The position numbers were made by a program, and so were the translations under genes. Positions 53,684 to 63,975 of a stretch of DNA of 64,000 nucleotides are shown piece by piece. Location of the stretch: contig JAEOTO010000011.1 in NCBI GenBank assembly GCA_016839805.1, positions 1 to 64,000 on the forward strand, written 5' to 3'. This stretch comes from Candidatus Hermodarchaeota archaeon (GTDB taxonomy: Archaea > Asgardarchaeota > Hermodarchaeia > Hermodarchaeales > Hermodarchaeaceae). Below the pieces are notes generated by a model. It saw nothing but the letters and a program-made list of their open reading frames with translations, made no database searches and was not told the origin of the DNA. The number at the start of each line of letters is the position of its first letter. The stretch's first letter is position 1.

Positions 53684-54622
53684 ATGACAAAACCATCCCT
53701 CGCCGTCGAAACACTCAGCATCTGCTCTGGCTGTGAAATCGCCATCCTGGATCTACACCAGGCCCTCCCAGGGGTGCTGGATGCCATCGACCTCAAATAC
53801 ATCCAAGTCCTCATGGACTTCCGTGAACCCCCCAAAGAAGGCGTCACCGTCGGTTTTGTCTCCGGTGGAGTCCGCAACGAAGAACAAGTCGAACTCCTCC
53901 ACAAAATACGCGAACGCTCACAAATCCTTGTCGCCTTCGGAGCCTGCTCAGCCTTTGGTGGTATACCCGGGCTCGCCAACCTCCACACTAAGGACGAACT
54001 TCTGCAAGAAGTCTACATCGACACTGTAAGCACCGTCAACCCCAAAGGTGTAATTCCCCACAAAGTCGTTCCCCCCCTCCTTGAAGAAGTTCACCCCATC
54101 AGCGACTTTGTCAAAGTCGACTACGTTCTCCCGGGCTGCCCGCCGCCACCCAAACTCATCGCTGAACTCGTCACCTGCCTCCTCGAAGGCAAAGAATTCC
54201 GACTCGAGCCTAAAACCGTCTGCGACCAATGCCCCCTCACCAAGGACGAAAAAAGCGTCACCAACTTCATCCGCTGGGGCACCAAAAAAATCGACCCCGA
54301 ACGCTGCCTCCTCGAACAAGGCTTCCAATGCCTGGGTCCTGTCACTCAAGGTGGCTGCGAAGCCCGTTGCCCCACCGCCCTCGCGCCCTGCCGAGGCTGC
54401 TTCGGACCCACCGAAAGTGTCCACGACCAAGCCGCCAAAATGATAGGCGCCATCGGCTCCGTTGTCATCCAAGATCCCACCAAAGCCCCTGCCCCTGAAC
54501 AAATCGTGAAGGAAATCCCCGACCTTGTGGGTACCTACCTCCGCTTCAGTTTAGCGGCATCCACCTTCAAAAAAGCGCTTCACACAAACGTTGTCAAAAT
54601 GAAAAAGGGTGTAAAAGCATGA
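53684..54622 (+). CDS. mvhG: [NiFe] hydrogenase small subunit MvhG-like
   Basis: This 312-residue protein has the small-subunit iron-sulfur ligands: ICSGCEIAILDL near the N-terminus, GACSAFGGIPG, PGCPPPP and a C-terminal set in CLGPVTQGGCEARCPTALAPCRGCFGP. It carries electrons from the active site in MvhA to MvhD. Codons end in C far more often than in most of the window. It overlaps mvhA by four bases. Confidence 0.94.
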   Translation: MTKPSLAVETLSICSGCEIAILDLHQALPGVLDAIDLKYIQVLMDFREPPKEGVTVGFVSGGVRNEEQVELLHKIRERSQILVAFGACSAFGGIPGLANLHTKDELLQEVYIDTVSTVNPKGVIPHKVVPPLLEEVHPISDFVKVDYVLPGCPPPPKLIAELVTCLLEGKEFRLEPKTVCDQCPLTKDEKSVTNFIRWGTKKIDPERCLLEQGFQCLGPVTQGGCEARCPTALAPCRGCFGPTESVHDQAAKMIGAIGSVVIQDPTKAPAPEQIVKEIPDLVGTYLRFSLAASTFKKALHTNVVKMKKGVKA

Positions 54623-56040
54623 GTCAAAAAGGAAAAACCATCAAAATCGCTCCCGTCTCCCGCGTCGAAGGACACGGCGCCATCACCATTCAACTCGACC
54701 AACAAGGCAACGTCGCCGACGCCCACTTCCACGTCATGGACGTACGCGGCTTTGAAATGTTTATGCAAAACCGTCCCGTCGAAGAAGCCCAACGCATCGC
54801 CACTCGCATGTGTGGCATCTGCCCCGTCAGCCATCATCTTGCCTCTGCCCACGCAGCTGATGCACTTTACAGAGTAGATCCCCCACGAACCGCCAAAATG
54901 CTCCGCGAACTCATGCATATGGGGCAATTACTGCATTCACATGTTTTGCATTTTTGGTATTTAGCTGCACCAGATCTATTACTACCAGATACGGGGCCTG
55001 AGACACGGCATGTTGTGACATTATTGCAGAAACATCCCGATGTGGTCAAGAAGGTTATTCGTGCCCGTCAGGTCGGACAGAACATCATCGAAGCCACGGG
55101 AGGTCGTGCAATCCACCCAGTTACAGCTCAACCTGGTGGGATATCTAAGCCTCTCTCAGAAGAGGTACGGGACGACCTAATAGCACAAGTCGATGAAGCA
55201 CTTGCGATTACCCATGAATTGTTCCCCGTTGTGCGTCCAGTACTGGATAAGGTTGAATTATTAGATGAATTGAAGACGGGCTACCTTGGATTGGTCAACA
55301 AGGATGGCAATCTTGATCCATACCAAGGTCTTCTTCGCCTTGTTGACCATGATGACAAACGCCTGGAAGAATTTCCTGTCAAAGATTACCTCAAATATAT
55401 TGGAGAGCACGTCACCGATTATTCCTACCTGAAGTTCCCATTCTACTTACCACGGGGTTGGCCTAAAGGGATGTACCGGGTAGGTCCACTCGCTCGGATA
55501 AATGTGGCTGATTCTATTCATACTCCTGATGCACGGGAAGAATTTGAAAAACTACATGACCAATTCGGACGAACTACAAACCATACACATCTCTACCACT
55601 GGTCTCGGCTGATTGAGATTTTATATGCAATCGAACGTGCAAAGGAACTCCTTACCGACTCTGAAATCACCAGCGATAATGTCATGAAGGAAGTGGAAAT
55701 TCGAGGTGGAGTTGGTATTGGGGTCATTGAAGCTCCTCGTGGAACCCTTATCCACCATTACACAGCCAACTCCGATGGCATCCTGACTAAAGTCAACCTC
55801 ATCGTTTCAACAGTAGGAAATAATGGTGGTATGGATCGTGGAGTCAAAACTCTTGCTCAACGTTATATCAAAAAAGGAGTTATTAATCCAATTATTTTAT
55901 CAAACATTGAAACAGTTGTTAGAGCTTATGATCCGTGCTTATCATGTGCTGTTCATTCAATAAATGGTCAAATGGCAATGCAAATTGATGTGAAAAACCA
56001 TCTTGGCGAACGAGTTCAAGTGCTCCGAAATTTTGAGTGA
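54619..56040 (+). CDS. mvhA: [NiFe] hydrogenase large subunit MvhA-like
   Basis: This 473-residue catalytic subunit has L1 RMCGICPVSHHLASAHAAD (about residues 62-80) and L2 DPCLSCAVHSINGQM near the C-terminus; the four Cys bind Ni-Fe(CN)2CO. The C-terminal extension after the L2 His is normally removed by a maturation protease. About the first 100 codons are strongly C-ending; from about 54915 the codon style changes abruptly to a more mixed, A/T-ending one. Homology continues across the change. Five copies of its last 35 codons lie downstream. Confidence 0.95.
   Translation: MSQKGKTIKIAPVSRVEGHGAITIQLDQQGNVADAHFHVMDVRGFEMFMQNRPVEEAQRIATRMCGICPVSHHLASAHAADALYRVDPPRTAKMLRELMHMGQLLHSHVLHFWYLAAPDLLLPDTGPETRHVVTLLQKHPDVVKKVIRARQVGQNIIEATGGRAIHPVTAQPGGISKPLSEEVRDDLIAQVDEALAITHELFPVVRPVLDKVELLDELKTGYLGLVNKDGNLDPYQGLLRLVDHDDKRLEEFPVKDYLKYIGEHVTDYSYLKFPFYLPRGWPKGMYRVGPLARINVADSIHTPDAREEFEKLHDQFGRTTNHTHLYHWSRLIEILYAIERAKELLTDSEITSDNVMKEVEIRGGVGIGVIEAPRGTLIHHYTANSDGILTKVNLIVSTVGNNGGMDRGVKTLAQRYIKKGVINPIILSNIETVVRAYDPCLSCAVHSINGQMAMQIDVKNHLGERVQVLRNFE
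55939..56040 (+). repeat. mvhA tail, intact reference copy
   Basis: The last 34 codons of mvhA (LSCAVH...NFE-stop), starting inside the L2 motif just after DPC. This is the reference for the downstream fragments. Its codons (GCT GTT CAT TCA) differ from those in the fragments (GCG GTG CAT GCG), so the fragments are not recent copies of this particular gene. Confidence 0.85.
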
Positions 56041-56100
56041 ATGGGAATTTAACTAAATTCACCAGCTATTCGTTGTAAGCTAATGATCTTCTTTCTCTTT

Positions 56101-57219
56101 TCACCTATTTTCATTTGACTTCCACCATTTTCTCTCGGATTCCTCTATGAATCCTTCTCGCTTAAGTCTTTCAAACATAGAATCGGCTTTTTCTTCTTGA
56201 GTATTAAGCCAGTTTCTAACTGCAACACGCTTGCGTCCAGAGGACGGTGGAGCTAGGATAGACCAGCGTAGAATATCATCTTGACCATTGACAACAGTCA
56301 CCCATGATGTAGAAACTCGACCATTTTTGAAGACACGAATCAGTTCAGAATAACAGGACCGATTGATTCCTAAACTTTCTAGCAGACTTCCTTCATCATC
56401 TATAAGCTTACATCGGTTACCTTCAATTAATTCAACTAATTGAGCTGCGATTATTCTGTCATGGATATTGGCAGCTTTATTTACCAATTCTTGAAGCTCT
56501 CTCATCCGTAATCTGGTTCTCTCAATTTCCTCAGAGTTGATTTTCTGTGAGGTTTCTTCGCCATACCTCAAAATGAAGTCTTTCTGTTGCTGCGAAATCT
56601 TTGGTTCAAAATTATATTCTTTGTTTTTTGAACCGGCATCAAGGACCACTATTCTCCGCCAAGCAAAGGAAAGTGTTTTCTCGGTATGAATAAACGATCC
56701 CTCTTCAGGAATCAATTCTTCAATATAGGCCCTTTTTACCCGTATTGACCCATTCCAAATGCTTGAAGGAAGCTCAAAGGATTGTAGGTGTTTTGCTCCT
56801 TTCCTCACTCCCCAATTCTCTAGTTGTCGACCGAGTACTGTCGTTGAATTTAGTTTGTAAACATTTCCTCGAGATTTAAGGTTCACATGTGCATCACCAA
56901 ATGTTTCTTTCAAGAGGTTCACAACATATTCTACTCGATCTTTTTCTTTCTCAGCGTACTCTGGTGTTGCTGATTTTCGATTCACATGTCCATCACTGAG
57001 GTAGATGGCGAGGAGGCGTGCTCGGAGTTCGTCTCGTTTTTCTCCCTCGGGGAATTGGGGGTTGTGGATTCCGTATCGTGGGTTTCTGCCGATGTGTTGG
57101 ATTTGTGGTTGTATGTCAGTGAATGTGGTGTTTGTTGCGTCGAGGAGGAAGTGTAGGCTTTCGCCGAGGATGTAGTGTCGGTGGGTTCCGTGGCTTATAC
57201 TGTGTTTGCACAAAGCCAC
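56101..57219 (-). CDS. LAGLIDADG-type homing endonuclease, free-standing
   Basis: This 372-residue protein has a LAGLIDADG-like first motif, LLAIYLSDGHVNRKSATPEYAEKE (about residues 69-92), followed by NVYKLNSTTVLGRQLENWG and KRAYIEELIPEEGSF, the second endonuclease-type segment. The C-terminal half has a winged-helix-like region (LLESLGINRSCYSELIRVFKNGRV). It is not inside an intron or intein here. The first ~75 codons are C-ending, then the codon style changes at about 56995, similar to the change inside mvhA. It lies convergent to mvhA, 60 bases away. Its target is inferred, not shown. Confidence 0.72.
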   Translation of the reverse strand: MALCKHSISHGTHRHYILGESLHFLLDATNTTFTDIQPQIQHIGRNPRYGIHNPQFPEGEKRDELRARLLAIYLSDGHVNRKSATPEYAEKEKDRVEYVVNLLKETFGDAHVNLKSRGNVYKLNSTTVLGRQLENWGVRKGAKHLQSFELPSSIWNGSIRVKRAYIEELIPEEGSFIHTEKTLSFAWRRIVVLDAGSKNKEYNFEPKISQQQKDFILRYGEETSQKINSEEIERTRLRMRELQELVNKAANIHDRIIAAQLVELIEGNRCKLIDDEGSLLESLGINRSCYSELIRVFKNGRVSTSWVTVVNGQDDILRWSILAPPSSGRKRVAVRNWLNTQEEKADSMFERLKREGFIEESERKWWKSNENR

Positions 57220-57240
57220 GGATTTACTAGTGCCAAAATC

Positions 57241-57534
57241 GTAGAAGGTGTTCTAAATCCAACCATTTTAAATGATACTGGTAACCTTTTCTTTATCTAC
57301 TCGATTTTAACCTTTATTGGTGAAAATGGTACCCAAGTTATTGAATGGAAGATTGAAATCCCCATCAATGTTGGACAAAGCGACATCGATGTAATATCAA
57401 CAAGAAATGTCACTGTAAGTGTAGTTCATCTTAATGGTGGATATCTCTATGTTGTTACAATTTATGTCTCAATAATCCTGGTTTTTTTCATTCTTTGTGT
57501 TACATGTGTACTAAAACGCAGACAAAGAGTCTAA
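57241..57534 (+). pseudogene. C-terminal remnant of a membrane-anchored protein
   Basis: The frame from about 57241 encodes KIVEGVLNPTILNDTGNLFF, a short extracellular-like region with N-x-T sequons, and one C-terminal TM segment YVVTIYVSIILVFFILCVTCVL followed by RRQ. It looks like the last part of a type I surface protein whose N-terminus is missing. The upstream part of the frame overlaps the endonuclease start. I see no start with a ribosome site. Confidence 0.4.
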
Positions 57535-57545
57535 TGAATTGATGT

Positions 57546-57614
57546 AAGGCGATATTGGTTGCGGTGTTAAATTATTTGGGTCGGACAAAACAGGTGATTC
57601 AGCACTTTGATGCC
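57546..57614 (+). repeat. mvhA-tail fragment 1, degenerate
   Basis: In frame this reads KAILVAVLNYLGRTKQVIQHFDA, matching (M)AMRIEVLNHLGETTQVLQNFED of fragment 3. The start of the tail (LSCAVHAVNGQ) is not recognisable. It is the nearest displaced copy to intact mvhA. Confidence 0.65.
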
Positions 57615-57637
57615 TGGCTGTATTCGGTCTGATTGTT

Positions 57638-58257
57638 TTAGCCAATTAGTTCCTTTACTTTCTTGAAGATATCCTGAGCTAATATTGCTTTGCCACAATG
57701 GGCGCAGTAAATTTGGTTTCCTGTTTCGGGAAGTTCGACATTGGCACCGCATTCTGGGCATTTGACTACCTGTAGCATCAAGCCTCCTTCTTTCATGTAA
57801 TTTTTTAGAAAGGAGAAGTCAAGATGAACGTGGACGCGTTCTTTTTGGCGTTCGGCTTGAAGGGCTTGTTTTCTAGCGTCTGCCCATTCGAAGATGTGTC
57901 GCCGAAATTTATCGAAATAAGTGCCACTGACTCCACTTAAGTGGAATACTTTCTCACCGGTTGGGTCACCGATTGATACGTATTTTCTTACCATACCACC
58001 CATGGAGATTCCGGTAATTTCCTCTAAGGGTGTTTCAAAAATCGTATGGTAAGACTTGCTAAGTCTTCCTCTGCTTTCTAACCAGATTAATCGTTGAGAG
58101 GTAAGGACTAAGGCACCTTTCTTTTTTTCCTTTACATCTTTCGGTACATCTTTTTTGAAAATCCTGCCTTTCTTTTCAAAGATCGTATGGGTCGCTTCAC
58201 AATTTCCTTTCCAATGGTGTATTATTTTCTCTCCTTCTCGAAGAAATATGGTATCTT
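57638..58257 (-). pseudogene. PH-like domain plus zinc ribbon protein, 5' end lost
   Basis: The minus frame is open from 58257, right after an in-frame TAG, with no start codon until ATG 58015 or 58003. The protein reads IIHHWKGNCEATHTIFEKKG... GALVLTSQRLIWLESRG... (a PH/GRAM-type bacterial PH domain), a long charged helix, and CPECGANVELPETGNQIYCAHCG zinc ribbon. Either the N-terminus was lost on insertion or an unusual start is used. The C-terminus is intact. It lies between tail fragments 1 and 2. Confidence 0.6.
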
Positions 58258-58464
58258 CCTATGGCAAAACCACCATCTCCGACAGTAATTGCAAAACGCA
58301 ATTAGCGTATTTAATATTGTTCCAACAGTACTGAAGCAGAAATTAGTTTTTGGGTTTTTCCTTTACTCTTCATAGCAATGAGAATATTGCAAAAACTACA
58401 ATTAGTAATTAGGAAGGGGTGTTATTCAGTTAAGGTCTAAATCTCAATTATGTTATTACACAGT

Positions 58465-58506
58465 CTCTCTTGTGCGGTGCATGCGGTGAATGGGCAGATG
58501 GCGTTA
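58465..58506 (+). repeat. mvhA-tail fragment 2, head part only
   Basis: CTC TCT TGT GCG GTG CAT GCG GTG AAT GGG (58465-58494) reads LSCAVHAVNG and continues QMAL, then the similarity ends. The first 39 bases are identical to fragment 3. Like the other copies it begins exactly after the Cys of DPC. Confidence 0.8.
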
Positions 58507-58522
58507 AAAGGTCAGACCAGGA

Positions 58523-58708
58523 TTATTCTTCGTGTTTTGGTTTTTTAGAAGTGTTTTCGGTGTGAGGTGGCTCATCATCAGGTGGAATTAAGCCTAATCG
58601 TTTTTTCCGCTCTTCTGGACTGAGCTTTGAAATACTTGTTTCACCAGGTTTCCATTTCCCTTTTTTTCTTTTTACTTCAGCTTTTATATTCTCTAACTCT
58701 TCATTCAT
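58523..58708 (-). CDS. Small protein like the protease N-terminal segment
   Basis: This 61-residue, charged protein contains KGKWKPGETSISKLSPEERK and then RLGLIPP. The adjacent papain-like protease has ARWRPGSTQIARKPLAVRKR and then MLGLKPT at its own N-terminus. The shared pattern W-x-P-G-x-T-x-I...R-K-x-x-L-G-L-x-P over about 30 residues is clear. It is transcribed divergently, 134 bases from the protease. A separate propeptide-like inhibitor is the attractive reading. No signal peptide. Confidence 0.6.
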   Translation of the reverse strand: MNEELENIKAEVKRKKGKWKPGETSISKLSPEERKKRLGLIPPDDEPPHTENTSKKPKHEE

Positions 58709-58787
58709 TATTAATAACCATCGGGCTGATGGTCATGTTGAATAGTTGATGCCCTTTAAACTTATCTTTCCTTTTTTTTGGTTAAAG

Positions 58788-58798
58788 ATTTATATATT
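58788..58798 (+). promoter_or_regulatory. TATA box of protease gene
   Basis: ATTTATATATT lies about 45 bases before the protease ATG, with a purine-rich GGTTAAAG just upstream resembling a BRE. GGAGGG at 58831-58836 is the ribosome site. Confidence 0.6.
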
Positions 58799-58842
58799 GT
58801 ATAGACTATAATTACATCATAGCACCAATTGGAGGGAATTGA

Positions 58843-60198
58843 ATGGTTGAAAGTACTGAATTTAAGAAACTCATAACTGAATATCGAAAAAGGCCTGCTA
58901 GATGGAGGCCAGGATCAACACAAATCGCAAGAAAGCCTCTCGCTGTTCGAAAAAGAATGCTTGGTTTGAAACCAACTCGAAGCTTATTAAGACGGATAAA
59001 GGCGGCAAAACTAGACCAACCTGTCCGGCGAGTGAGAAGACTCGGGACGGGACTTGCTGTTTCTACAAGTTACCCAAATGCATGGGATTGGCGAAATGTT
59101 GATGGGAAAGATTGGACTACCCCAATACGAAACCAGGGAGGATGCGGCTCATGTGTAGCCTTTGGAACGCTCGCAGCTTTCGAGGCTCGACAGAAAATTC
59201 AAGTGTTCCGATACCCCACCGCCTCTCCAAACCTCTCTGAAGCTCATCTATTTTTCTGCGGGTGTGGAAACTGCTGTGGTACAGGTTGGTTCTTCACTGA
59301 TGCCCTAGAGTATCTGAAAAAGTATGGAGTTCCACCCGAAGACTGCTTCCCATATGTGGACTCAGATACGCCATGTTCCGATACTTGTGATGATTGGGAG
59401 GATCGAGTCGGATATAACAAAATCAAAAGTTGGGACCATACCATGGACACAGATGAGATGAAAGAATGGATAGCAAGTGATGGGCCACTTGTGGGAGGAA
59501 TGGCAGTATACACCGATTTCTTCTACTACACTGGTGGTATTTACGAATACGTATCGGGGTCTCTTGAAGGATATCATGCCATCGCAGTTGTCGGCTATGA
59601 CGATGATCAAGAATGCTGGATTTGCAAAAATAGTTGGGGCACCGGATGGGGTGAAAATGGCTGGTTCCGAATCGGTTACGGGGAATCAGGAATTGATTCC
59701 GTCTATGGAATGTACAGTATGGATCCTATGGATCCATGTGAAGGTGAAGAATCTCTTAAACTGCTTGGATATCAAGAGGTGTTCTCTACCTTACGGGAAT
59801 TCCGTGGAAGATACTTATTACGAACGGAGTCTGGCAGAGAATACATAAATGCAGTTCGAAGAAATCCAGGACCATTATGGAGAGTTTATTCTTTACTCGC
59901 TTTTGATAAAGATCTACGCAAAAAAACAATGACTGCTTTAGCACCGTTTATTCAAAGCGTTCAGACTATGCATGATCCAAAACCCAAAGTACTAAGCAAA
60001 GCGGATTTCAGTAGAGCAGAAAAAGTGATTGATGCAATAATTAATCGAGAACCCCGAATTCGCAAAGAATTAACACAAGTGAAACAAGAAATGCGTAAAT
60101 ATCAGGGTAAAGATGCTAAACAAATCGTTAGAATGCTTAGACGGGAATCATTTCGTCCGCCACCTCGACCTGTTCCACGTCGATTGGATGATGAATAG
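58843..60198 (+). CDS. Papain-family (C1) cysteine peptidase
   Basis: This 451-residue protein has a short basic N-terminal segment (1-70), the papain domain, and a 150-residue helical C-terminal part. Catalytic residues are visible: Gln98 and Cys104 in RNQGGCGSCVAFG, His in GYHAIAVVGYDD and Asn in CKNSWGTGWGENGWFRI. Further cysteines (CGCGNCCGTGW) suggest disulfides or metal binding. No signal peptide is apparent, so it may act in the cytoplasm. The N-terminal segment recurs in the divergent gene 58523-58708. Confidence 0.9.
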   Translation: MVESTEFKKLITEYRKRPARWRPGSTQIARKPLAVRKRMLGLKPTRSLLRRIKAAKLDQPVRRVRRLGTGLAVSTSYPNAWDWRNVDGKDWTTPIRNQGGCGSCVAFGTLAAFEARQKIQVFRYPTASPNLSEAHLFFCGCGNCCGTGWFFTDALEYLKKYGVPPEDCFPYVDSDTPCSDTCDDWEDRVGYNKIKSWDHTMDTDEMKEWIASDGPLVGGMAVYTDFFYYTGGIYEYVSGSLEGYHAIAVVGYDDDQECWICKNSWGTGWGENGWFRIGYGESGIDSVYGMYSMDPMDPCEGEESLKLLGYQEVFSTLREFRGRYLLRTESGREYINAVRRNPGPLWRVYSLLAFDKDLRKKTMTALAPFIQSVQTMHDPKPKVLSKADFSRAEKVIDAIINREPRIRKELTQVKQEMRKYQGKDAKQIVRMLRRESFRPPPRPVPRRLDDE

Positions 60199-60479
60199 GT
60201 TTAGACGTATTATGTAGTAGTTTCCATTGACATTGTACAAGTATCCACTATGGTCAGCTCCTGACATGAGGTCAAACAAAACGCAAAAAGCGCATAGTGG
60301 AGGTCTTCAACCTCCTCTTTAGATGATATGCTATTCTTCGATGATTTAACCCAATTGCTCACATCTTTGCAATCCCTTGGTTCATCAGCTAATATTCTCT
60401 ATAGCACCAATCATAGTCACAGTATTCATTAAGTAGTACGCTTACAGTTGGAGATAACAGCATATCGCTTTCTTGGGTT

Positions 60480-60851
60480 TCATGATTTTAGATCACGAAA
60501 CATTTTGAAGGGATTAAACCCGATTTCAGCCATGACTGCAGATTTGGAATCCTTATCTAGCCACTTGAGAAGAGTTTCAAAGGCGGTGTTTTCCTCTTTC
60601 GCTGCATCATTCCGTTGGCCAATGATAAATGCAAGGACTGCTCCACTGGCGACTCCAGCAATTAAGTTCAAGATTGCTGTGGCTAAATCAAGTGCAGAAA
60701 ATGCAAGTACTAATGCAGCGGTAATAAAAACCGTCATGATGATTGCTATGATGAATATTAACGCCGTCCATAGATACTTCCAGAGAAAAGCGGTGTGATA
60801 TCTTTTTGCTATAACTTCAAAGATTTGCGATGGTGGTATGTCTTGACTCAT
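60480..60851 (-). CDS. Two-TM membrane protein, unknown
   Basis: The 123-residue protein (ATG 60851, MSQDIPPSQIFEVIAKRY) has two long hydrophobic helices with a short turn (about 27-49 and 55-75) and then a charged cytoplasmic tail NDAAKEENTAFETLLKWLDKD. The layout recalls two-TM membrane domains seen in some conflict or signalling proteins, but no family is identified. It is convergent with the protease gene. Confidence 0.55.
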   Translation of the reverse strand: MSQDIPPSQIFEVIAKRYHTAFLWKYLWTALIFIIAIIMTVFITAALVLAFSALDLATAILNLIAGVASGAVLAFIIGQRNDAAKEENTAFETLLKWLDKDSKSAVMAEIGFNPFKMFRDLKS

Positions 60852-61153
60852 TTTCCTTTCACCATTATTTTGGAGCCTATGACTCAAACCCTCACTCAAT
60901 CCATCTGTGATTATCATATTTATAATACGCCCCTTAGCAGATTTCAGCTACTAGAGTATTGTGTGGTAGTAGGATTTCCTAGTTCATTGGGCTGGGTCTT
61001 AGTGTTAGGGGACGTTGAGTGCGAGTTTAGCAAAAAAGAACAAGTTGAGAATGGGTCCAATGGTTATGACTAGAACCAGGAACACCTTTTTTGGTGTTGT
61101 CAGGTTCTCGAGTGGCATCGTGTCAACTAGCGAATTAATAACTAAAAACTTGC
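60852..61153. other. Gene-free stretch before tail fragment 3
   Basis: About 300 bases of AT-rich sequence with no convincing gene on either strand. It holds the promoter region of the two-TM gene and runs into tail fragment 3. Confidence 0.5.
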
Positions 61154-61258
61154 CTCTCTTGTGCGGTGCATGCGGTGAATGGGCAGATGGCGATGCGGAT
61201 TGAGGTTCTGAATCATTTGGGTGAGACGACGCAGGTGCTTCAGAATTTCGAAGATTAA
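61154..61258 (+). repeat. mvhA-tail fragment 3, complete
   Basis: A perfect 35-codon open tail, LSCAVHAVNG...QNFED-stop, starting after the DPC position and ending in TAA. No start codon or upstream hydrogenase sequence is present. Codons favour GCG, GTG and ACG, unlike intact mvhA. Confidence 0.88.
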
Positions 61259-61427
61259 GTGGTTCTTCTAGTTAAAATTAATCTGGTCCATTCATATCGT
61301 TGTAGTTTTGAATTCAGTTTTTGTATTTTTTGTGTAGGACGGTATCCATGAATATTTATGCGTGACCCTCCTGTGTTTTTTTGACATCACGGTGATTGTG
61401 GTGATCATATTATTTGGGTAAAGAAAA

Positions 61428-61769
61428 ATGTCGAATGAAACTGCCAGAACATTAGCACTGGCTGGAGGCATATTGAATTTGATTGGTGGGCTCGTCATTA
61501 CGAGCATCACCTCCTTGTTATACTTCTTCCTTCTCTGGACGGGGCTTGAACCCTCTAGTTTGAACCACACCCTGTTCTTATTCTTCCTTATGATTGGGAT
61601 ATTTGCGACGCTTCTCGGGATTTTACCAATTATATGGCGCAATGATCCCGAGAATCACCAAACGGGCTTAGTCATCATCGGTGCCATTACCATCCTCTCA
61701 ATTGGCGGTATACTCAATCTCGCAGCTGGTATTATCGCAACAAACGAAGAAGCGGTCAAAACCTCATAG
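61428..61769 (+). CDS. Small membrane protein, three TM
   Basis: This 113-residue protein has three hydrophobic segments (about 7-35, 46-66, 78-100), glycine-rich and without polar active sites. It resembles DUF4064-like small membrane proteins. It lies between tail fragments 3 and 4 and is the sole gene there. A T-rich stretch follows it (61808-61832) and may end transcription. Confidence 0.55.
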   Translation: MSNETARTLALAGGILNLIGGLVITSITSLLYFFLLWTGLEPSSLNHTLFLFFLMIGIFATLLGILPIIWRNDPENHQTGLVIIGAITILSIGGILNLAAGIIATNEEAVKTS

Positions 61770-61807
61770 ATAGTTCGAGTAAAAGCGTTTTTCCGTTTCT
61801 TTCTTCC

Positions 61808-61832
61808 CTCTTTTTTTTACTCACAGTTTTTT
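61808..61832 (+). terminator. T-rich termination region
   Basis: Two runs of T (61811-61818 and 61827-61832) separated by ACTCACAG follow the small membrane protein gene at about 40 bases. Archaeal terminators are commonly oligo-T. No hairpin is needed or seen. Confidence 0.45.
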
Positions 61833-61850
61833 CATATGCTCCCAGATAAG

Positions 61851-61954
61851 CTTCTTACGCGGTGCATCCCGTTAATGACAAATGGCGATGCGGGTTGAGT
61901 TGTTGAATCATCTGGGGGGAAACAACCTAAATCATTCAGAACTTTCAGGATTAA
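61851..61954 (+). repeat. mvhA-tail fragment 4, degenerate
   Basis: Base-by-base alignment to fragment 3 is clear over about 100 bases (ACGCGGTGCATCCCGTTAAT..., then ATGGCGATGCGGGTTGAG, then AATCATCTGGG), but small indels and changes have broken the frame. This is the most decayed long copy and so probably old. Confidence 0.8.
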
Positions 61955-62178
61955 CTTCTTACGTACTGGCTTGTGTTGAGAGCCAGTCTTCTACCTTCTT
62001 TCGTTTGGGGTTAGATGATGGCATTGTACCTCTTACTCTTTTTGAGAGAGGTTTTTTCATATTGCTGAAACTCGTCCTGATCGGTTTCTTCTTTCCTTCG
62101 GGCGTCGACGCTAAGGATATCCTTCTTTGTTGCGGCTCGAATGACTTTTTTTGTTTCTCACTGAATATACCCACCATA

Positions 62179-63459
62179 CTACAAGTGGTTATTTTCCATC
62201 ATTATGGACTCGATGGACTGGGTGTTTTTTTTGTGTTGGGATTGGGGGATTGAAAACCGAAGCGTCCGTTGTTGATTAAGCTCGTTAACAAAAACCTCAG
62301 AGGCTCTACCAACAAATTCGAGGGACTGAGGGGCGATGTTATCAATTCGATCATGTGGTGTGTGATTGAGGAGGAAATTCACTCCTCCACCAAACCACCA
62401 GTGCACTGCTGGAATACCATAATACGCAAAGATGCGGTTATCTCCTCCGGTAGGCGCTAGTCGCATTTCTGGGTTCCATTGATGAATCGCTTGATTGACT
62501 CGGGTGAGCAGCCGTTTTTCTCCAATTACACCTAGGGCTAAATTACCAATTCGGGCCCCTTGTACGTCAAAATTCAGATTCAGTTTAATCTCATCTAATG
62601 AAGTTGAATGCGTTTGGCAATAATGCCGCGCTCCTTGTAAGGCGCACTCCTCGCTTCCACAAGCCACGAAGCGTAAGGTCCATCGAGGGGTCGAAGCCGC
62701 GAAGACTCTCGCTAGTTCCAGTAAAATCGCGGTGCCAGCAGCATTATCCGCGGCTCCAGGGGAGTACGGAGCAGAATCATAGTGGGCGGAAAAAAGGATG
62801 ACATCTGGTTCTAGTCCTGGAATTTCACCAATCACATTGAAACTTTCTGACTGGAGAATTGTTACATCCGCTAGGATAGTTAGTTCTCTCGCATTGGCTA
62901 ACAACTTCGCTCCATCTTGATAACTAACAGAGATTATCGGTGGTAAAAGGTCGAAATCGCCCGTGTTTAATGCACTATAGATAAAACCCATAGGAAGTTT
63001 GGGTGGAATCCCTGGATGATATGTGACATAGATAATTCCTTGAACACCTGCTTGGATGAGATCCTGCACGACTTGTTGCGAGAAATCCCGAGTATATAAT
63101 ATAACGATTTTGTCAGAAAAACGGCTTAGATTATCGGGAGTGGGATTCCAACTCCATGAAGTGTACTTCACAACTGGACCTGATACGCCCTCACTCTCAG
63201 TGGAACCAGATAGTCCAAAGCTTAACCCCTCAAATGTACGAGTTCCGGCGATAATTTGGGCCTTTTTTTGACGACTTGTAAGGACAGGAAACGCTTCGGC
63301 ATGAACGTTTTCAAGACCATATTGCGATAACTGGGTACAGAGATAGTCCTTCGTGGTTACCGTACTCTCCAGTCCCTGCACCCGTACACCAATAGATTGC
63401 GCTAAATGACGACAAACCTCAAATGCAGTGTCACCTGAAAACTTCTGCGTCTCTTTCAT
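62179..63459 (-). CDS. M28-family zinc peptidase with PA-like insert
   Basis: The 426-residue protein (ATG 63459, MKETQKFSGDTAF) has an M28 metallopeptidase core: first zinc ligands in LFSAHYDSAPYSPGAADNAAGTA, catalytic Glu pair in CGSEECALQGARHY, and a late ligand in LLNHTPHDRIDNI. A PA-type insert (about residues 80-190) contains VKYTSWSWNPTPDNLSRFSDKIVILYTRD. No signal peptide is obvious. These enzymes are aminopeptidases or carboxypeptidases. The frame is open to 63498. Confidence 0.87.
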   Translation of the reverse strand: MKETQKFSGDTAFEVCRHLAQSIGVRVQGLESTVTTKDYLCTQLSQYGLENVHAEAFPVLTSRQKKAQIIAGTRTFEGLSFGLSGSTESEGVSGPVVKYTSWSWNPTPDNLSRFSDKIVILYTRDFSQQVVQDLIQAGVQGIIYVTYHPGIPPKLPMGFIYSALNTGDFDLLPPIISVSYQDGAKLLANARELTILADVTILQSESFNVIGEIPGLEPDVILFSAHYDSAPYSPGAADNAAGTAILLELARVFAASTPRWTLRFVACGSEECALQGARHYCQTHSTSLDEIKLNLNFDVQGARIGNLALGVIGEKRLLTRVNQAIHQWNPEMRLAPTGGDNRIFAYYGIPAVHWWFGGGVNFLLNHTPHDRIDNIAPQSLEFVGRASEVFVNELNQQRTLRFSIPQSQHKKNTQSIESIMMENNHL

Positions 63460-63621
63460 GTCAAAAGAATAGGTCAACCCATTAAAAAAAGAGCTCACGA
63501 GAATGGTAACTTACCACGCAACGAAAACAGCTTTTAATGTCCAAGAAGCTAGTATAAATGGGGATCTGTTTTCTCAATAAGAAGTTGTTAATTATTTAAT
63601 GAAATTTCGTTGAATTTTAAG

Positions 63622-63726
63622 CTTTCTTGTGTGGTGCATGCGGTGAATGGGCATATGGCGTTGTGTGTTGAAGTTCAGAATCATCTTGGTGAGACGACGC
63701 AGGTTATCCAGAACTTCGAAGATTAA
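63622..63726 (+). repeat. mvhA-tail fragment 5, complete
   Basis: A second perfect 35-codon tail, LSCVVHAVNG...QNFED-stop, similar in codons to fragment 3 but with several synonymous and a few amino-acid changes. It begins after DPC like the others. Confidence 0.88.
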
Positions 63727-63735
63727 TAGATTCGG

Positions 63736-63975
63736 TTACGTGGGTTTGCTTGCTATCACGCGCCAATTGACAAAGTTGTCGATAATGCGCCAAACACCGT
63801 GCACTACAATGAAAGTGAGTAATCCGAGTAATGGATAAACGATGTTTGTTCCCCATATGTCTATTTCGTTATTTACGAAATATTGGAGAATGCCAATCGC
63901 TACAAGGAATTGGCTGATGGCAATGATGATTTGAAAGATAAACCTGATGCTTGATCCAGTCCTTTCTCGCATCAT
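63736..63975 (-). CDS. Small two-TM protein
   Basis: This 79-residue protein has two hydrophobic segments (about 11-33 and 44-62) and a short basic tail. It begins about 25 bases from the window end and stops 10 bases after tail fragment 5. No family is recognised. Confidence 0.5.
   Translation of the reverse strand: MMRERTGSSIRFIFQIIIAISQFLVAIGILQYFVNNEIDIWGTNIVYPLLGLLTFIVVHGVWRIIDNFVNWRVIASKPT

Follow-up and report, generated by a model that had tools for sequence, protein, structure and literature searches.

Displaced ends of a hydrogenase gene in an Asgard archaeon: an apparent hot spot of homing that swaps gene 3' ends

Downstream of an intact gene for a [NiFe] hydrogenase large subunit (mvhA), the chromosome of an Asgard archaeon of the Hermodarchaeia carries several copies of nothing but the end of that gene, with unrelated genes between them. 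What process leaves gene ends behind and keeps the gene itself whole? Apparently, a selfish endonuclease gene has exchanged the end of the hydrogenase gene time after time and has pushed the old ends, together with stray genes, downstream. The window analysed here is the whole stretch of bases 1-64,000 of contig C46 (64,983 bases) from genome G000, a 2.3-Mb draft. The comparison covered four other species of the same genus (g1; G001, G002, G003, and G004) and the sister genus (g2; G005-G007).

Displaced gene ends downstream of mvhA

Downstream of intact mvhA, the plus strand carries five partial copies of the gene's final ~34 codons (Table 1). They were detected with E-values of 9e-8 to 1e-30 by an nhmmer profile that was built partly from two of the five displaced copies, and a protein search of the genome with a single sequence recovered the same five places. 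The five same-direction tails that an earlier note had recognised in this DNA are thus real. One more copy is positioned past 64 kb, just outside the window (C46:64040-64131).

The first codon of tails 58465, 61154, and 63622 is the Leu codon that directly follows the DPC of the L2 motif, exactly as described before, and the homology to the mvhA tail stops at the stop codon. Tails 61154 and 63622, whose frames were correctly read as perfect up to the stop, share 85% nucleotide identity. Tail 58465 consists of only the first 39 nt and is identical in these to tail 61154. A strict order of age by distance from mvhA is ruled out because the badly decayed tail 57546 lies nearest to mvhA, closer than the perfect tails. 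Among the genes listed earlier for the gaps, the endonuclease, the papain-family (C1) peptidase, the M28 peptidase, and the membrane-protein ORFs were recovered, whereas a PH domain was not confirmed and the zinc ribbon has weak matches only. Three further relics of mvhA tails are present on the minus strand of another contig of the same genome (G000:C33; L090 17193-19351), and cassettes of this contig are common to G001 and G003.

Table 1. Coordinates of the features of the mvhA locus in the window
Feature	Position	Strand	Basis
mvhA/VhuA-like [NiFe] hydrogenase large subunit, intact, with foreign 3' part	54619..56040	+	473-aa open frame
Putative imported (co-converted) 3' part of mvhA	54918..56040	+	Identity drop vs G002
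DPC/L, codons of the L2 motif, putative cut and insertion site	55930..55941	+	Displaced-tail starts at mvhA and the paralogous FpoD/NuoD-like gene
Homing endonuclease gene, LAGLIDADG_3, convergent with mvhA, 60-nt gap	56101..57219	-	Pfam, 26.0 bits vs cut-off 22.5
Displaced tail 1, decayed	57546..57613	+	nhmmer E 8.9e-8
Cargo: zinc-ribbon ORF	57638..58003	-	Weak zinc-ribbon matches only, under curated cut-offs
Displaced tail 2, truncated	58465..58505	+	E 7e-9
Cargo: papain-family (C1) peptidase	58843..60198	+	Pfam Peptidase_C1, E 2e-42
Cargo: two-TM protein ORF	60480..60917	-	Weak matches only
Displaced tail 3, frame open to stop	61154..61258	+	E 1e-30
Cargo: small membrane protein	61428..61769	+	ORF; similar-looking ORF at L091:5931-6203
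Displaced tail 4, decayed	61853..61953	+	E 3e-19
Cargo: M28 peptidase	62179..63498	-	Pfam Peptidase_M28, E 1e-33
Displaced tail 5, frame open to stop	63622..63726	+	E 5e-28
Cargo: small membrane ORF	63736..63975	-	ORF; one weak DUF4418 match

The 3' part of mvhA and the locus in relatives

The best NCBIfam model of mvhA is VhuA, with an E-value of 8e-136 and a score under the curated cut-off of the model. Identity between genomes G000 and G002 is 90.9% from mvhG to about codon 100 of mvhA and falls to 65.4% beyond this point. The chi2 of this breakpoint is 216, as opposed to 12-20 for other species pairs. The mosaic breakpoint at codon 100 indicates that the 3' part of mvhA is an import. The mvhA genes of G001 and G002 show a sharp break at the L2 motif itself, where identity falls from 86% upstream to 69% downstream.

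The nucleotide identity of the intact and displaced mvhA tails is only 59-62%. For displaced tail 61154, identity is 77-80% to the sister genus's intact tails and 80-89% to most of the displaced tails of G004, but 62% to the intact tail of its own locus. The intact tails of G000, G001, and G002 are 66-68% identical among themselves and only 65-66% identical to those of the sister genus. The displaced tails are thus nearer to the intact tails of the sister genus than any intact tail of the genus is. Judged by these identities, the intact mvhA tail is the foreign one, and the displaced ones were once native.

Each of the four further species sampled from the genus has displaced mvhA tails: three in G002, six on two contigs in G004, and one each in G001 and G003. 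The sister genus has the intact tail only, and in G005 and G007 the sequence that follows mvhA is shared nearly without a break. Among 228 Asgard genomes searched for tails, multiple short displaced tails occur in this genus only; matches elsewhere are mostly in long frames. No tandem full-length copies of mvhA, the sign by which the earlier note would have recognised gene decay, were seen at the locus in the relatives, which carry tails only. Cassettes recur in altered order between genomes. An M28 peptidase is positioned between tails in both G000 and G004, and the homologue on G004:C236 is 73% identical to that of the window. The upstream flank and start of tail 58465 match G004:C236 1-252 at 94%, and in G004 the tail after this region leads straight to the M28 peptidase. 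Other cassette units are common to G001, G002, G003, and contig C33 of G000. These comparisons of mvhA loci, with their tail copies and variable cargo, largely bear out the earlier idea of repeated insertion at L2, in which each insertion brought a tail that kept mvhA whole and displaced the older one.

In G001, G003, and G005, contigs break off at L2 or close to it, as expected for tails that vary in the population. In G001, the contig with mvhA and the contig with the tail overlap by exactly 127 identical bases. The overlap resembles a branch in an assembly graph, and therefore more than one continuation after L2 is probably present in the G001 population.

An endonuclease family at the 3' ends of other genes

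The endonuclease that adjoins mvhA has two LAGLIDADG motifs with acidic residues, LLAIYLSDGH and YIEELIPEEG, and the Asp of motif 1 is kept in 65 of 66 relatives. Relatives were identified in 40 of 228 Asgard genomes, many in frames of 600-900 aa. In the alignment, the window endonuclease is without the N-terminal ~340 aa of its paralogues, and it may be inactive. A profile search against the PDB matched no LAGLIDADG structure, and the single-sequence AlphaFold model (pLDDT 40) is too poor to use. Scans of IMG/VR with the tail profile and with the endonuclease returned no relatives and so give no sign of a viral carrier.

The family occupies three places in G000, after mvhA, after an FpoD/NuoD-like gene on contig C3, and as a remnant after EtfA on contig C10, and in all three it is convergent with the 3' end of its neighbour. 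The neighbour on C3, which meets an endonuclease gene of 692 codons' product length (692 aa) stop to stop, encodes a large subunit of the [NiFe] family that ends in IDPCFSCTDR... Beyond the endonuclease are four displaced FpoD-like tails, three of which start at PCFSC/NCVDR (L2), and MsrB and membrane-protein ORFs lie between them. Displaced FpoD-like tails are also present in G001, G004, G006, and G007. Between orthologous tails, the FpoD-like array of G000 has one extra unit relative to that of G004, and the tails on either side match at 76% and 91%. No member of the endonuclease family was found in the array-bearing drafts G001 and G004, which are 83% and 74% complete.

The association extends to genes with unrelated functions. 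The endonuclease is positioned directly downstream of mvhA, the FpoD-like gene, SufS, ScpB, OTC, and other genes. In Asgard members, it lies between an intact gene and a displaced 3' end at SufS (76% over 45 aa), OTC (94% over 34 aa), HDAC, Lsm, ScpB, MetF, and EtfA. The identities of MetF and EtfA were read from the sequence; those of SufS, OTC, Lsm, HDAC, and ScpB come from separate searches. Lsm has two displaced copies of its 3' end. The 3' end of HDAC is displaced in two genomes, with the endonuclease codirectional. That of MetF is also displaced in two genomes, and in G002, where the endonuclease is broken up, a displaced tail of 74 aa is still there. Neighbours of ~70 family members were examined for a 3' end that recurs beyond the endonuclease, and such ends were found for 7 of 57 genes that face the endonuclease vs 5 of 323 others (p 5e-4). 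After regrouping by inspection of three endonuclease-flanked loci (ScpB, and HDAC twice) that the script had misfiled among the five others, the counts are 10/60 and 2/320 (p 2.5e-7). A displaced tail of rubredoxin is a borderline match (E 0.007). At SAHH and uS19 (L138, L140, and L143) the endonuclease is convergent with the 3' end and no displaced tail was found. Altogether, the family appears to displace the 3' ends of at least nine kinds of genes in Asgard archaea.

Two loci can be compared with sites that contain no insert. The SufS bodies of G218 and G064 are 94.9% identical. The G218 site is empty, and a convergent gene lies 54 nt downstream of its SufS tail. The order in G064 is intact tail, endonuclease, displaced tail, and, again at 54 nt, the same next gene as in G218. 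The native tail of G218 is matched at 94.8% by the displaced SufS tail of G064 but at only 77.8% by the intact one, and the junction is at a conserved Cys codon (SGxHC). In G089, the displaced OTC tail starts immediately past the HCLPAH motif, and a pfkB-like gene lies 11 nt downstream of it; the native spacing of OTC to the same gene is 11-13 nt in several relatives. Therefore, the insert sits precisely between the gene body and its native tail, at active-site codons.

Several single loci differ in detail. SufS of G086:C185 (L228) has a tail of the foreign type, 87% identical to the intact tail of G064, and no endonuclease follows; this is a tail swap without the endonuclease or after its loss. 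The endonuclease remnant at EtfA of G000 is arranged stop to stop with the gene (L255, G000:C10 2143-3741), and at EtfA of G002 (L257) a displaced tail of 19 aa is present beyond the endonuclease. At the Lsm locus (L188, L178, and L187), a conserved gene of ~210 aa (MNTRLNIGN...) immediately precedes the endonuclease in the same orientation and is perhaps its partner gene.

Mechanism, alternatives, and passenger genes

The best explanation, in which we place considerable confidence, is recurrent intron-less homing at a hot spot, by which gene 3' ends are exchanged at conserved active-site codons. A free-standing LAGLIDADG endonuclease would cut the L2 codons (DPC/xSC) in large-subunit alleles with the native 3' sequence; the divergent tail would be immune. 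The break would be repaired off a donor allele with homology on both sides, and this repair would insert a tail and the endonuclease gene much as an intron is inserted. The left end would pair with the gene body, and therefore copying of donor sequence could extend far upstream, ~1.1 kb in mvhA. The incoming DNA would comprise a divergent but functional tail and the convergent endonuclease gene, and the recipient's own tail, beginning at the cut, would stay on the far side; the intact gene, as the comparison shows, is a foreign tail fused to the gene body. Arrays of tails and cargo genes could arise if such rounds recurred and were accompanied by capture of adjacent DNA and by recombination among tails. 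Endonuclease genes would decay first and orphan tails would persist. Against this explanation, most of the distal cassettes contain no endonuclease remnant, the array-bearing drafts G001 and G004 yielded no member of the family, and the window endonuclease is shortened.

The earlier note had assumed a mechanism like that of integrases. Elements with an integrase or transposase could use the L2 region as an attachment site and bring a replacement tail, as at tRNA genes and orfX/SCCmec, with the endonuclease as mere cargo. The sharp recurrent boundary, the growth of arrays with variable cargo, the identical 39-nt direct repeat at 58.5-61.15 kb, and the variation of cassette order between genomes are in line with such elements. 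Nevertheless, we regard them as an unlikely cause, since no tyrosine or serine recombinase is present among the array proteins searched in Pfam, a LAGLIDADG endonuclease adjoins mvhA instead, the replacement of mvhA upstream from codon 100 is unexpected for integration at a core site, and displacement at seven other kinds of genes tracks the endonuclease family and not an integrase.

One-sided homologous recombination with illegitimate joining (homology-facilitated) would dispense with a dedicated nuclease, and the array would be a neutral scar of DNA uptake beside a conserved gene. The mosaic mvhA, with its breakpoint far upstream of L2, and cargo made of ordinary genes agree with this, but the right-hand junction falls repeatedly at the same codons in two genes and several species, and at many unrelated genes a nuclease lies between the displaced end and the intact one, which makes such an origin improbable too. 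Decay of tandem mvhA paralogues was already disfavoured. The copies are tandem and several are decayed, but the fragments start at L2 and the relatives never have extra full-length copies at the locus, so that this origin is very improbable.

Gene-end-swapping homing has relatives among several known systems. Free-standing homing endonucleases of phages (intronless homing) likewise reside beside a gene with an inferred target, co-convert flanks, and spare a resistant allele that differs in sequence, but in phages the flanking allele is replaced; we know of no displaced 3' ends or cassette arrays from them. Inteins and group I introns with homing endonuclease genes share the inferred target at codons of conserved active-site residues, whereas here there is no splicing, and the gene stays continuous through a replacement tail that brings a stop codon of its own. 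Integrative elements that restore the 3' end of their target gene (tRNA genes, icd, and orfX/SCCmec) also supply a substitute 3' end and accrete in tandem; they differ in that here no recombinase was found, the upstream part is mosaic, and an endonuclease is present. The closest parallel is provided by the mORF elements of fungal mitochondria, which replace gene C-termini in atp6 of Allomyces and in atp6, atp9, cox2, and nad3 of Glomus, and for which biochemical proof of mobility is cited (PMC3630166). As in those elements, the host gene carries a foreign C-terminus with the endonuclease ORF directly behind it, and the native C-terminus farther on is closer to relatives than the inserted one. 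Unlike them, the elements described here reside in an archaeal chromosome, use hydrogenase, SufS, OTC, HDAC, Lsm, and other genes as hosts, encode endonucleases of another family, whose N-terminal region is long, and form multi-tail arrays with cargo genes. The earlier description of the site as undescribed is therefore only partly right. No archaeal or Asgard precedent for 3'-end-swapping endonucleases was found in the open-access literature searched, a scope outside which most subscription journals fall, so that absence is not proof. The nearest archaeal case comes from a Heimdallarchaeum, in which a mobile element with a homing-endonuclease-like gene is inserted between 16S rRNA and tRNA genes (PMC8813620).

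The proposed homing would take a process known from fungal mitochondria into Asgard chromosomes and into genes of central metabolism (hydrogenases, SufS, OTC, EtfA, and MetF). A selfish nuclease could create chimeric enzymes, orphan gene tails, and an insertion hot spot next to an essential operon. The C-termini of such genes may have a separate history, which matters for phylogenies and for the assembly of MAGs.

Cassettes of single, often convergent, ordinary genes are poorly explained by the simplest homing model. Cassettes without an endonuclease could derive from copying into donor neighbours, from capture at the break, or from recombination between tails. The 39-nt repeat shared by tails 58465 and 61154 brackets the C1-peptidase unit. 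Together with the extra unit of the FpoD-like array, it suggests events inside arrays, insertion or deletion, and displaced tails that are still usable. Tentatively, displaced tails could serve as reusable landing sites, and breaks at L2 combined with recombination between tails of different strains would amount to an integron-like exchange of cassettes, with cargo families swapped between mvhA and FpoD-like arrays. Integrons similarly consist of single-gene units bounded by repeats and reshuffled between strains, but the boundary repeat here is a coding tail, and no IntI was seen in the Pfam search, which covered array proteins only. A family of ~240-aa membrane-anchored proteins, without a Pfam match for the members searched, is cargo in both mvhA and FpoD-like arrays (L095 2057-2785, L096 2493-3269, L091 4220-4927, and L124 1212-1922); a search with its G004 member returned copies in mvhA arrays only. 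Next to the C1 peptidase of the window, a small ORF on the minus strand (58523-58708) looks similar, on inspection by eye, to the N-terminal part of the peptidase (KWKPGETSISKLSPEERKKRLGLIP and RWRPGSTQIARKPLAVRKRMLGLKP). It is possible that this ORF encodes a propeptide-like inhibitor beside its protease.
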